Part shown: one piece after another, positions 14,977 through 18,717 of the stretch
How the letters are laid out: the number at the start of each line of letters is the position of its first letter
Numbering within the stretch: position 1 is the stretch's first letter
NCBI RefSeq assembly: GCF_014873145.1
Contig: NZ_JADBEK010000001.1
Span: 5,084,001-5,148,000, forward strand
Direction: 5' to 3'
Length of the DNA: 64,000 nucleotides
DNA from: Nonomuraea angiospora
GTDB taxonomy: Bacteria > Actinomycetota > Actinomycetes > Streptosporangiales > Streptosporangiaceae
The notes under the pieces: generated by a model
Told to the model about the DNA's origin: nothing
The model's input: only the letters and a program-made list of their open reading frames with translations
The model's database searches: none
Program-made: the position numbers and the translations under genes

Positions 14977-15897
14977 TCAGTCGATGCTGATGCGGGCCAG
15001 GGCGCCCGCCTCCAGGGCCACCCAGATCGCCCCGTCCGGCCCGACCGTCAGCCCGTGCGGCTCGGCCTTCCGCGTGTCACCGTCCCCCGGCTGCGGTCCG
15101 GCTGATAGCGGGTGCGATTCGAGGGTGCCGTCGGTGGTGATGCGGCCGAGGCGGTCGGCGGCCCACTCGGTGAACCAGAGGGCACCGTCGGGACCGGTGA
15201 CGATCGCGTGCGGTCGTGCGGCCCGGTCGGGCAACGGGTACTCGGTGATCTTGCCGGTGGTGTCGATCCGCCCCACCTGACCAGCACCGATCTCCACGAA
15301 CCAGAGCGCCCCGTCCGGCCCCAGCGTGATGCCCACCGGGGCGGCGCCCTCCGTGGGGAGCGGGTGAACGGTCACCTCACCGGCCACCGAGATCCGCCCG
15401 ATGGCGTTGCCCTGGTTGATCGTGAACCAGAGCGCGTCATCCGGCCCCGCCGTGATGAAAGCGGGCATACCGCCCTCCACCGGCACCTCGAACTCCGTCC
15501 GCTCCCCGTCGGGCCCGATGCGCCCGATCCGGCCGGTCTGCATCTGGGTGAACCACATGGCCCCGTCGGGCCCGGCGACGACCCCGTACGGCGAGTCCGC
15601 CTCATAGGAGGTCACCTGCCCGTCGGCGGTGATCCGGGAGATCCGGCCGCCCTTGCCCTCCGCGAACCACATCGCCCCGTCCGGCCCCGGGGTGATCACA
15701 GTCGGCTGCCCGTCGGCCGGATCGAGCTGATGGATCACCGGCTTCTGGCCCGGCACCATCCTGCCGACGCGCCCTTCGTGGACGAGCGTGAACCAGAGTG
15801 CGCCGTCCGCTCCAGTGGCGATGCCGTACGGCGCGCCCTCTTCAATCCTGGTCAACATCTGCGGTCCTTCACTGGTCGATCCTGCGTTGCTCAACAT
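14977..15897 (-). CDS. vgb: Virginiamycin B lyase (streptogramin B lyase) family beta-propeller
   Basis: A 306-residue seven-bladed propeller with repeated GPDGALWFTE-like blades. The residues used for catalysis in Staphylococcus Vgb (His228, Glu268, His270, plus Glu284) have clear counterparts: His230 in ARPHAIV, Glu279 and His281 in AEPHG, and Glu296 in VALEAG. Vgb linearises type B streptogramins by breaking the ester bond of the depsipeptide ring, without hydrolysis. The ATG at 15897 has GGAGGA in front and overlaps the ABC-F gene by seven bases; an internal ATG at 15858 with AAGGA is the alternative. Coupling to an ABC-F gene fits a streptogramin resistance unit. Some Vgb-like propellers have other or unknown substrates. 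Confidence 0.85.
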   Translation of the reverse strand: MLSNAGSTSEGPQMLTRIEEGAPYGIATGADGALWFTLVHEGRVGRMVPGQKPVIHQLDPADGQPTVITPGPDGAMWFAEGKGGRISRITADGQVTSYEADSPYGVVAGPDGAMWFTQMQTGRIGRIGPDGERTEFEVPVEGGMPAFITAGPDDALWFTINQGNAIGRISVAGEVTVHPLPTEGAAPVGITLGPDGALWFVEIGAGQVGRIDTTGKITEYPLPDRAARPHAIVTGPDGALWFTEWAADRLGRITTDGTLESHPLSAGPQPGDGDTRKAEPHGLTVGPDGAIWVALEAGALARISID

Positions 15898-18056
15898 ATG
15901 CGTCCTCCTGCCAACGTGATCTCGGTCCCCCGGAAGCGCCGGATGAGGGCGCGGTCGTGCGACACCACGACGAGCCCGCCGCGGTAGTCGTCGAGTGCCT
16001 CCTCGATCTCCTCGGCCAGGACCGGCGACAGGTGGTTGGTCGGCTCGTCGAGCAGGAGGAGGTCGTACTCCTGCGCCAGCAGCCGGGCCAGCGCCAGCCT
16101 GCGCCGCTGCCCGACCGACAGCGTGCCCACCTTCTGGTCGAGAGTCCGGGGCTTGAAGAGGCCGGTGCTCAGCAGGGCTGCTCGCCGTTCGTCCGCATAG
16201 GTGTGGTTGTGGCTGTAGGCGTCCAGGACGGTCAGATCGGGGTCGAACGTCGCCTCCTGCGGCAGGTGGCCGACCCTTACCTGGGCGTGCTCGGCCAGGG
16301 TCTGGAGCAGCGTCGACTTGCCCGCGCCGTTGGCCCCGCGGACCAGCAGCCGGTCGCCGGCTTGGAGAGTCAGGGAGGGGACATGCAACCGATCGCCGAC
16401 CCGGACATCGCGCAACTCCACGAGCACGCGAGCTTGAGCACGGTTGTGCTCGGCCCCAGGCTGGTGTTCGGCCCCAGGCTGGTGTCCGACCGCATGCCCC
16501 TGTCCGGCCCCATGCCCGTGCCCGGCACGCTGGTGTCCGGGGCCGAGCTCACGTCCCGCATCAAGGGCGCGTCGCACGCCAGGAGCGCGTCCCGGACCGG
16601 GATCATGGCTGCGGCCAGGCTCATGACGCGGGCCGAGTTCGTGTCCCACGACAGGAGCGCGTCGCGCGCCGGGCTCGTGTCCCAGAGCGGACTCGTGGCT
16701 CGGAGCGAGCCCGTGTCCCGGGGCGGTCCCGTACTCCGGAGCGGGCTCGTGGCTCGGGGCGGGCTCGTGGCTCGGGGCGGGCTCGTGTCCCAGGGCGGGG
16801 CCATGCCCCGGAGCGGGCGCATGGCTTACGGTCGGCTCGTGGCTCGGAGCGGGCTCGTGGCTCGGGGTGGGCTTGTGTGTCGTATCAGGGGCGCGTTGTG
16901 TGCCGGGCCGGGGTCTCGAAGTGGGCTCGGGTGTTGCGTCGTCGGCGCGTCCTGTGCCCGGTCGGCGTCCCGGGGTGGGATTCGGTGTTGCGTCGGGTGG
17001 GTGGCCTGGGGCGAGGGTGCTGGGGGTGGTTTCGTCGGTGGTTGGAGTGTCGGGGAGATCCGAGGTGGTGAAGGTGCCGTGGAAGCGGAGTGGGGCGGGT
17101 GGCCGGGGGACGGGGTCGGCCTCCAGTCGGCGCAGGCGTTCGTGGGCGTTGCGGACCCGGCTGGCCACCGAGCTCTGCACCCGCCCGGCGTTGCGGTCGT
17201 AGGCCATCTTGTTGTTGTCGCGCATCAGCCGTCCCGTGGCCACCCGGTGGGCGGTCGTGGCCGCGTAGTCGCGTACCTGGCGCACTTCCTCGCACCACGC
17301 CGCGTACGACTGCTCCCAGCGGGCCCTGGCGGCGGCCTTGGCGGCCAGGAAGCCGGTGTAGCCGCCGCCGAAGCGGGTGATCGTCCCGTGCTCGACCTCG
17401 AGCACGGCCGTGGCCACCCGGTCGAGGAAGACGCGGTCGTGGGAGACCACGACGACCGTGCCCCGGTGCTCGCGCAGCCGGGCTTCGAGCCAGGTCAGGG
17501 CCGACTCGTCGAGGTGGTTGGTCGGCTCGTCGAGCAGCAGCACCCTGGGCGCGGCGGCCAGGACGCAGGCCAGGCCGAGGCGGGCGCGCTCCCCGCCCGA
17601 CAGGCTGGACAGCGGCCGGTCGCGGCCCACGTGGGACAGCCCCAGCCCGTGGAACGCCTTGTCGACCCGCGCGTCCGCCTCGTAGCCGCCCCGCAGCTCG
17701 TACGCCGTCAGCAGTTCCCCGTACTCCGCCATGACGTCATCGGTGAGCGACGACTCCAGCTCGCGGATCCGGCGCTCCATGGCGCGCAGGCCCGCCAGCG
17801 CGGCGTCGACGGCCTGCTGGACCGTGTGGCCGGGCGGCAGGTCGAGCGTCTGCCGGAGGTAGCCGGTGTCGTCGGCCAGCGTCACCTCGCCGTCGTCGGG
17901 ACGCTCGACCCCGGCCAGCAGCCGTAGCAGCGTGGACTTGCCCGAGCCGTTCTCGCCGACGACGCCCACGCGCTCGCCTGGCTTCACGGACATGGACACG
18001 TCAGCGAGGACGGCCCGCTCGCCGTATGACTGGGAAACCCCTCGAAGGCTGATCAG
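15891..18056 (-). CDS. ABC-F family ATP-binding protein (antibiotic resistance type), long low-complexity linker
   Basis: A 721-residue protein with two ABC domains and no membrane segments. Domain 1 has GENGSGKSTLL, LSGGERARLG and LLLDEPTNHLDE; domain 2 has GANGAGKSTLL, LSVGQRRRLALARLL and LLLDEPTNHLS. ABC-F proteins of this type enter the ribosomal E site and dislodge bound antibiotics. The interdomain region holds KMAYDRNAGRVQSSVASRVRN and then about 200 residues of SHEPAP/GHEPAP-like repeats, far longer than usual. The first ABC strand (LISLRGVSQSYGERAVL) requires a start near 18056, where only CTG (with GGAG seven bases upstream) is available before an in-frame TAA; the first GTG, at 17999, would cut off this strand. 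Confidence 0.85.
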   Translation of the reverse strand: MISLRGVSQSYGERAVLADVSMSVKPGERVGVVGENGSGKSTLLRLLAGVERPDDGEVTLADDTGYLRQTLDLPPGHTVQQAVDAALAGLRAMERRIRELESSLTDDVMAEYGELLTAYELRGGYEADARVDKAFHGLGLSHVGRDRPLSSLSGGERARLGLACVLAAAPRVLLLDEPTNHLDESALTWLEARLREHRGTVVVVSHDRVFLDRVATAVLEVEHGTITRFGGGYTGFLAAKAAARARWEQSYAAWCEEVRQVRDYAATTAHRVATGRLMRDNNKMAYDRNAGRVQSSVASRVRNAHERLRRLEADPVPRPPAPLRFHGTFTTSDLPDTPTTDETTPSTLAPGHPPDATPNPTPGRRPGTGRADDATPEPTSRPRPGTQRAPDTTHKPTPSHEPAPSHEPTVSHAPAPGHGPALGHEPAPSHEPAPSHEPAPEYGTAPGHGLAPSHESALGHEPGARRAPVVGHELGPRHEPGRSHDPGPGRAPGVRRALDAGRELGPGHQRAGHGHGAGQGHAVGHQPGAEHQPGAEHNRAQARVLVELRDVRVGDRLHVPSLTLQAGDRLLVRGANGAGKSTLLQTLAEHAQVRVGHLPQEATFDPDLTVLDAYSHNHTYADERRAALLSTGLFKPRTLDQKVGTLSVGQRRRLALARLLAQEYDLLLLDEPTNHLSPVLAEEIEEALDDYRGGLVVVSHDRALIRRFRGTEITLAGGRIC
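16395..17070 (-). repeat. In-frame His/Glu/Pro/Gly minisatellite in the ABC-F interdomain linker
   Basis: Degenerate 15-18 bp units (for example GGCTCGTGGCTCGGGGC on the plus strand) encode repeated GHEPAPSHEPAP-like hexapeptides. The tract separates the last helix of the conserved linker from the second ABC domain. Confidence 0.85.
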
Positions 18057-18129: not shown

Positions 18130-18717
18130 TTGGAGTCGAACAAGCGGCCGGGCGGGCGAAGTGCCCGGGTTCGGGACGCCGTACGGCAGGCCACCCTCGC
18201 CGAGCTGGCCGAGCGCGGATACCGGGGCCTGACGGTGGAGAACGTGGCCGAGCGGTCAGGGGTGCACAAGACGACCGTCTACCGGCGCTGGGGCAGCGTC
18301 GCGGGGCTGATCTCCGACGCCCTGGAGCTGGCCAGGGACGAGCCGTGGCCCATTCCCGACACGGGCTCGATCGAAGGCGACCTGAGGGGCATCGTCCAGC
18401 TGGTGCGCAGCGGCTTCGACGACCCGGAGCTGGGGCCGGTGTCGTCGGCGTTCGTGGCGGCGGCCGTACAGGATCCCGACGCGGCGCGGGCGCTGCACGA
18501 GTTCTTCACGGCCCGGCACGAGCAGTCGGCCGAGGTGGTGCGGCGGGCGGTCGCACGCGGTGAGCTGCCTGACGTCGTGGATGTCAGGGAGGTGATCAGG
18601 GTGGCCGTCGCGCCTGTCTACTACCGGTTGTTCGTGGCGCATGAGCCGGTCACCGAGCGGGACGCCGATCGCGCCGCCGACGCGGCGCTCGCCGCCGCCC
18701 GCGCCGGCGTTCTGTGA
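18130..18717 (+). CDS. TetR/AcrR family transcriptional regulator
   Basis: A 195-residue repressor. The N-terminal helix-turn-helix is TLAELAERGYRGLTVENVAE followed by RSGVHKTTVYRRWGSVAGLI. The C-terminal ligand-binding part resembles the TetR_C_11 group (GFDDPELGPVSSAFVAAAVQ). The start is a TTG with GGAG six bases upstream. It is divergent from the ABC-F/Vgb unit and so is the likely repressor of that unit, released by the drug or a related ligand (inference). Short copies of its 3' end recur after the stop. Confidence 0.88.
   Translation: MESNKRPGGRSARVRDAVRQATLAELAERGYRGLTVENVAERSGVHKTTVYRRWGSVAGLISDALELARDEPWPIPDTGSIEGDLRGIVQLVRSGFDDPELGPVSSAFVAAAVQDPDAARALHEFFTARHEQSAEVVRRAVARGELPDVVDVREVIRVAVAPVYYRLFVAHEPVTERDADRAADAALAAARAGVL

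Follow-up and report, generated by a model that had tools for sequence, protein, structure and literature searches.

Clusters of vga, vat and vgb are known from staphylococcal plasmids, and in these, as in the overlapping vat-vgb pair of Paenibacillus, the gene for a streptogramin B lyase adjoins a second resistance gene whose product acts on streptogramin A. Structures are available for the lyases Vgb(A) and Vgb(B) (PDB 2z2n, 2qc5). For the ABC-F resistance proteins, extracts of two accounts (PMC10201436, PMC6723617) place macrolides and streptogramin B with ARE4 (TlrC) and Msr, and pleuromutilins, lincosamides and streptogramin A with ARE5. In this study, we analysed a 64,000-nucleotide stretch (the window) of the 13.09-Mb, single-contig genome of Nonomuraea angiospora, in which a Vgb-type lyase gene overlaps an ABC-F gene beside a divergent TetR gene. 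The arrangement shares with the known pairs a lyase gene adjoining a second resistance gene, but the partner here, unlike theirs, probably does not act on streptogramin A. With about even confidence, we read the locus as an intrinsic, TetR-controlled resistance operon in which the lyase and a tunnel-clearing ABC-F protein would act on the same drug site, with streptogramin A handled elsewhere. The components are known and their combination is new as a variant; our literature search, limited to open-licence papers and weak for that reason, found no description of an ABC-F/Vgb operon in actinomycetes. The leads that we find most interesting are the CTG start codon of the ABC-F gene and a Streptomyces locus with an ARE5-type neighbour.

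The lyase and its partner

The gene order agrees with the first-pass annotation of this DNA: vgb (14977..15897, minus strand, 306 amino acids), the ABC-F gene (15891..18056, minus strand, 721 amino acids) and a divergent tetR (18130..18717, plus strand, 195 amino acids). Because the ABC-F gene ends at 15891 and vgb begins at 15897, the two overlap by 7 nucleotides (ATGTTGA). The translational coupling that had been proposed for them is possible but is not required, because vgb has its own AGGAGG ribosome-binding site (15904..15909, minus strand), 6 nucleotides 5' of its ATG and within the 3' end of the ABC-F gene; similar G-rich sites precede vgb in most of the relatives listed. The closest named relative that we saw is Nonomuraea jabiensis, with 98% identity in the first nucleotide-binding domain (NBD1) of the ABC-F protein and 93% in Vgb. 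The central part of the earlier description is borne out: an environmental actinomycete has, beside a TetR gene, a resistance-type operon that encodes a Vgb-type lyase and a ribosome-protection type of ABC-F protein.

Vgb scores 411 bits against the Pfam family PF24684 (Vgb_lyase, cut-off 50) over positions 11-290, which places it among the propeller homologs, and it matches the solved lyases 2qc5 (E 4e-79) and 2z2n (E 1e-76). The four residues that had been singled out as catalytic, His230, Glu279, His281 and Glu296, are indeed present and are conserved in all 60 rows that reach those columns in an alignment of 61 (one row is cut by its contig end); they align to the lyase active site, and we take their catalytic roles to be those of the lyases. 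With Vgb(A) and Vgb(B) the protein thus shares propeller homology, active-site-aligned residues and length; it differs in being chromosomal, in lying beside a TetR gene and in falling far below the cut-off of 600 of the NCBIfam allele models VgbA and VgbB (240.5 and 255.8 bits), with 40.8% identity to an Enterococcus plasmid vgb(A). From these sequence comparisons we infer lyase activity, and the enzyme probably destroys the streptogramin B half of the paired antibiotic.

The ABC-F protein has two NBDs, with each class of motif present (Walker A, signature, DEPTNHL), and the structure model shows these two NBDs and a linker with no transmembrane part, as in ribosomal-protection proteins. It passes the general ribosomal-protection model NF000355 (392 bits, cut-off 380), as do five of seven relatives. 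We call it ARE4-like on the basis of its scores on NF000355 and NF000171, a tree and the structure model. NF000171 (TlrC/CarA/OleB/SrmB, ARE4) is its best NCBIfam match, and in a tree of 32 rows (midpoint-rooted for drawing only) a 23-row group with support 99/98 unites it with two ARE4-labelled proteins and leaves out the ARE5-type rows. One of the ARE4-labelled rows adjoins macrolide-type sugar genes on the S. griseofuscus plasmid pSGRIFU1. Its linker of 93 residues falls within the range of the ARE4-labelled and near rows (90-94), and the ARE5-type rows have linkers of 105 residues.

No ARE5 NCBIfam model stood among the 25 of 204 families listed, and the ARE5-type group was therefore marked by the published MLV leader peptide of Are5sc; named VarM or LmrC sequences were not part of the comparison. 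The window protein falls apart from the genes with this leader, and the 400 nucleotides 5' of its gene contain no MLV leader peptide. Two other ABC-F genes of the same genome fall with the ARE5-type rows, yet without an upstream MLV string. Elsewhere in that genome (G000:C1:3702500-3708000, L183), two neighbouring ABC-F genes belong to different groups, one of them ARE5-type. A structure search against the PDB matched many ABC-F proteins without separating the subfamilies.

Like TlrC, CarA, OleB and SrmB, then, the window protein has NF000171 as its best match, stands on their side of a supported split and has a linker of similar length; it differs from them in its score under the model cut-off, its long disordered insert, its CTG start, its Vgb partner and the lack of a nearby non-ribosomal peptide synthetase (NRPS) cluster. 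With VarM, LmrC, Are5sc and TiaA of ARE5 it has in common that all are actinobacterial ABC-F resistance proteins, but it lies on the opposite side of the split, the linkers of the ARE5-type rows are 12 residues longer, and ARE5 genes are under leader-peptide control. Parts of one paper (PMC12421871) state that ARE5 ABC-F genes mostly lie outside gene clusters.

Drug range and alternative explanations

Because the protein sides with ARE4 in the 99/98 split, has a linker of 93 rather than 105 residues and stands apart from the ARE5-type genes, it is more likely, judged by sequence, to guard the exit tunnel than the streptogramin A site. In the mechanism that we propose, Vgb would open the ring of type B streptogramins, while the ABC-F protein would enter the ribosomal E site and most likely clear drugs of the exit tunnel (macrolides and streptogramin B). 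The two would then share one drug site, Vgb destroying the drug and the ABC-F protein ejecting it, and streptogramin A would probably be left to other genes. Several observations weigh against this reading. The NF000171 score, 616 of the required 800 bits, is below the cut-off, as are those of seven relatives (577-730 bits), and the tree does not settle the order of the window protein relative to the ARE4 rows inside the 23-row group. Moreover, Ard1 (AAF1), an actinobacterial ABC-F protein that PMC10201436 reports as close to ARE4 and ARE5, has a range confined to nucleoside antibiotics; kinship therefore does not fix the drug range of an ABC-F protein.

The first-pass annotation had the ABC-F protein protect against streptogramin A, together with lincosamides and pleuromutilins, and Vgb destroy streptogramin B, so that one operon would cover both halves of the antibiotic. 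Pairs of this sort are known, as noted above for Paenibacillus, several ARE subfamilies cover streptogramin A (PMC10201436, in part), and the general ribosomal-protection model is satisfied; but the supported split sets the window protein off from the ARE5-type group, its linker is shorter, its upstream region is without an MLV reading frame, and a separate ARE5-type gene accompanies this pair in three Streptomyces loci. We consider this explanation unlikely. An ABC-F gene beside vgb does not by itself mean coverage of A and B; coverage depends on the subfamily, which in this case indicates the other drug site, and a tempting annotation is thereby corrected. We think it slightly less likely still that the ABC-F protein has a different range (nucleosides, for instance, or other peptidyl-transferase drugs) and has no more than its regulator in common with Vgb: its score under the ARE4 cut-off, the nucleoside specificity of Ard1 and the independent loss of ABC-F and Vgb in relatives would fit, but ABC-F and Vgb are neighbours in several genera, and this recurrence suggests a shared drug class.

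The doubt may also be turned on the lyase, which could act on another cyclic depsipeptide or a host metabolite instead of streptogramins. Vgb belongs to a large family, with 7866 relatives out of 7997 scored; Vgb itself is near-universal in the genus, with 52 of 54 genomes over the cut-off, and CylK, a structural relative, performs other chemistry (PMC8916777, in part). Yet the four residues matching the staphylococcal lyases are kept throughout the alignment, and the adjoining ribosome-protection and TetR genes point to a drug; we regard another substrate as distinctly improbable.

Two further suggestions, that the locus is on the producer side or a reservoir of the clinical genes, fared poorly. 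The genome has 20 NRPS condensation domains (E up to 1e-20), the nearest about 0.66 Mb from the locus, in a survey that included no search for specific streptogramin genes; a producer cluster at the locus is unlikely on this account. As a source of the clinical genes the locus is a weak candidate, given its distance from the Enterococcus gene and from both allele models and its conserved chromosomal site in most of the genus.

Candidate streptogramin A and B loci in Streptomyces

On three Streptomyces replicons (L171, L172, L175), which are mutually related and hence not independent, a homologous ABC-F/Vgb pair is accompanied by a convergent ARE5-type ABC-F gene. In the two of these loci that are represented in the tree, the second ABC-F protein falls outside the 23-row group. 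In L171 and L172, a TTG-CTC-GTC-TGA (MLV) open reading frame with a ribosome-binding site lies 231-234 nucleotides before the ARE5-type gene, and L175 has this string at the corresponding position; we assign the neighbour to ARE5 because this upstream frame fits the leader peptide MLV published for Are5sc, with its TTG start and 232-nucleotide leader (PMC12421871, in part). Across the fetched loci (2.69 million strand-bases) the MLV string occurs four times, and the three occurrences with a ribosome-binding site are those of L171, L172 and L175. In L171 and L175 the pair adjoins a gene for a TetR relative; in L172 none was located next to it. We therefore name the Streptomyces combination, on its gene content, as a better candidate for joint A and B resistance than the window locus. 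In Paenibacillus (L178, 3349-4891), vat and vgb overlap by 11 bases, a textbook A and B pair.

TetR and its candidate operators

The tetR product has a helix-turn-helix domain (PF00440, 40 bits) and a C-terminal domain (PF16859, 106 bits) of TetR repressors, and its gene starts at a TTG 6 nucleotides after GGAG. Directly 5' of the ribosome-binding site of the ABC-F gene lies an operator candidate, O2 (18069..18089, minus strand), an exact match to TAACGCTAC-AACA-GTTGCGAT that is kept in relatives. A second, degenerate copy, O1 (18107..18128, no strand assigned), adjoins the start of tetR, and its CTCCAGTTGCRTT block is conserved in relatives. The palindromic operator block between tetR and the ABC-F gene is retained genus-wide, and five of five Actinomadura TetR-Vgb loci have a perfect TAACGCAAC-N4-GTTGCGTTA between tetR and vgb. 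With up to 2 mismatches allowed, the O2 pattern matches nowhere else in the genome, but its reversed control has 2 sites under the same rule; the count is thus no evidence, and the claim rests on position and conservation. On these grounds, TetR would bind the palindrome at the start region of the ABC-F gene and repress both the ABC-F/vgb operon and its own gene, and a ligand, perhaps streptogramin B or a macrolide, would release it.

The distance from the operator candidate to the CTG leaves little space for a leader peptide such as those of other resistance ABC-F genes. In A. kijaniata and Planobispora (L030, about 6260-6390; L031, about 6230-6350), an out-of-frame ATG reading frame with a ribosome-binding site just 5' of the ABC-F gene may encode a leader peptide.

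The probable CTG start codon of the ABC-F gene

The ABC-F gene most likely begins at a CTG (18054..18056, minus strand), 7 nucleotides after GGAG (18064-18067), and not at GTG 17999. The assignment draws on 38 Nonomuraea copies, of which 34 are whole, 2 are eroded and 2 are truncated by contig ends, and on the copy of genome G034 (L190). Of these 39, which are the copies with a readable 5' end, 38 appear to start at CTG. These loci are related, and the count is hence not one of independent cases. In all 38 surveyed copies it is the sole in-frame NTG within 14 nucleotides after GGRG, at a spacing of 5 to 8 nucleotides, and the codons that flank it vary among copies. An upstream in-frame stop, with no ATG, GTG or TTG between it and the CTG, is found in 37 of the 38, the other (L161) having two TTG codons. 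In the window, a conserved block, GATTGGAG plus 7 nucleotides, runs up to the CTG, and the first in-frame ATG, GTG or TTG past the upstream stop comes 19 codons after the CTG, inside the fold. In none of the 38 does a ribosome-binding site precede a later ATG, GTG or TTG ahead of Walker A; L126, L132 and L144 lack any such codon between the CTG and Walker A. Immediately after the CTG, the structure model has confident strands at residues 2-11 and 14-24. In six genes of the window, CTG makes up 55% and CTC 37% of the leucine codons (n = 229), so that a fixed CTG would not be expected from coding alone.

Other starts were rejected. The GTG at 17999, given in the list of open reading frames, and a nearby ATG have no ribosome-binding site, are not conserved and would remove the strands at residues 2-11 and 14-24 of NBD1; the preceding ATC does not serve as a common rule, since by locus that codon is ATC, ATT, ACC, ACT, GTC, GTT, CCT, CGT or CAC. 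Database records that start at a later codon (e.g. P0121, P0122) thus drop the first two strands of the fold. At the matching position elsewhere, Planobispora has CTG and A. kijaniata TTG, and four Streptomyces copies are annotated from ATG.

Two points speak against the assignment. In L190, an ATG that immediately follows the operator block starts the ABC-F gene, with neither GGRG before it nor an adjoining Vgb, and CTG is therefore not indispensable; the sole ATG copy is also the copy that lacks Vgb next to the ABC-F gene. Furthermore, two papers (PMC11497404, PMC4633059) report that CTG is a weak initiation codon in E. coli and that a selection in mycobacteria did not enrich it among starts. 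Since CTG is a poor initiator, it likely means a low output of the ABC-F protein. The CTG start would keep this protein scarce, while vgb, with its strong ribosome-binding site, would be made in larger amounts. A long shot is that the CTG is a switch, with CUG initiation near nil under stringency and rising when a drug perturbs ribosomes, and with the insert tuning residence on the ribosome; a ribosome guard would then sense the state of the machine that it guards, with no need for a leader peptide. In any case, a CTG kept in nearly all copies is a testable, long-kept, non-standard start on a resistance-type gene.

The disordered insert

A disordered insert of 208 residues (16443..17066, minus strand) lies between linker helix 2 of the ABC-F protein and its NBD2, recognised from arrays reported by Tandem Repeats Finder, from the predicted local distance difference test (pLDDT) and from length variation. 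It consists of repeats rich in Pro, Ala, Gly, Thr and His with periods of 18 to 72 nucleotides, its pLDDT is mostly below 50, and it separates the ribosome-contacting linker from NBD2. Measured from fixed points, the interval ranges from -10 to 238 residues and is in frame in all 34 whole copies of the genus. No two of ten ABC-F proteins with 96-97% identity in NBD1 agree in insert length, by a measure that located both of its anchors in 56 of 120 proteins. Some relatives carry inserts within NBD1 or NBD2. The insert was also considered as a sign of gene decay, an idea that we rejected for the whole copies, in which the frame is kept, with both NBDs under purifying selection in the pairs tested; true decay of the ABC-F gene does occur in relatives.

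Passive repeat growth is our default explanation of the insert, because the neighbouring HAD gene also has one: that gene (13471-14313) is split by a proline-rich tandem-repeat insert (13691-13862) similar to the one in the ABC-F gene. The intergenic sequence at 14389-14900 is likewise built from repeats. Draft contigs L164, L165, L167, L168 and L169 end at or near the ABC-F insert, as one would expect where short reads fail to span a repeat. An insert of such variable length in a probable ribosome-binding protein offers a natural series for the study of linker effects.

Distribution and inheritance

In Nonomuraea, this operon is chromosomal and inherited. Of the 54 genomes sampled from the genus, 34 have TetR, a fully open ABC-F gene and Vgb together (in G050 the Vgb is cut by a contig end), and in four more, cut by contig ends, the NBD2 half adjoins Vgb; the NBD1 half lies on another contig in G003 and G052 and was not found in G002 and G048. 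An ABC-F gene, or its NBD2 half in the four cut copies, thus stands beside Vgb in 38 of the 54 genomes, as it does in other actinomycete genera, which is not chance. Of the 50 stretches fetched from the genus, 42 share with the window one or more of the flanking genes (binding protein, ABC transporter, HAD, kinase, quinone oxidoreductase, LysE, PucR), and recent mobile acquisition of the window locus is thereby ruled out; five whole copies lie without those genes (L120, L126, L130, L150, L157). Quick estimates of the ratio of nonsynonymous to synonymous substitutions against N. jabiensis are 0.05 for TetR, 0.15 for NBD1, 0.26 for NBD2 and 0.34 for Vgb, all four under purifying selection.

The pair is not indivisible, however, and the following genomes count against a joint function. 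Six of the 54 keep TetR and Vgb with the ABC-F gene deleted or eroded (L133, L141, L142, L146, L160, L162), and three have Vgb alone at the site (L123, L124, L128). G034 has TetR and ABC-F at the site (L190, about 5826-8894) with no Vgb between the ABC-F gene and the quinone oxidoreductase, and another Vgb elsewhere (L122). Vgb has therefore outlasted the ABC-F gene at the site nine times, and the reverse is seen once. In G001 the Vgb lies elsewhere (L121), and in five genomes (G005, G007, G032, G038, G051) Vgb is divergent, partial or absent, G038 also holding an internally deleted ABC-F gene (L191). Loss or erosion of the ABC-F gene appears to have been repeated and independent (the six loci above and L191), mostly with TetR and Vgb kept, and the protein P0001 resembles an eroded ABC-F remnant run into Vgb.

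Beyond the genus, 393 genomes sampled evenly across the class, with only a few candidates scored in each so that some may be missed, gave Vgb at E 1e-80 or better in 60 cases. In seven of the 393, an ABC-F protein like P0210 (E 1e-130 or better) is encoded directly beside Vgb: three are Nonomuraea, two belong to other genera of the same family and two to another family.

Surroundings of the locus and database records

The block from the kinase through TetR and ABC-F to Vgb (about 14900-20450) is inverted between the HAD and quinone oxidoreductase genes in the window and in N. jabiensis relative to other Nonomuraea. Among the records with Vgb-like genes, four metagenome-assembled genomes named Bifidobacterium breve (L042, L047, L048, L051) are probably misfiled or misnamed, and the same is probably true of NZ_LT559118.1 (H1, H51), a whole 11.85-Mb Nonomuraea record inside a plasmid collection.

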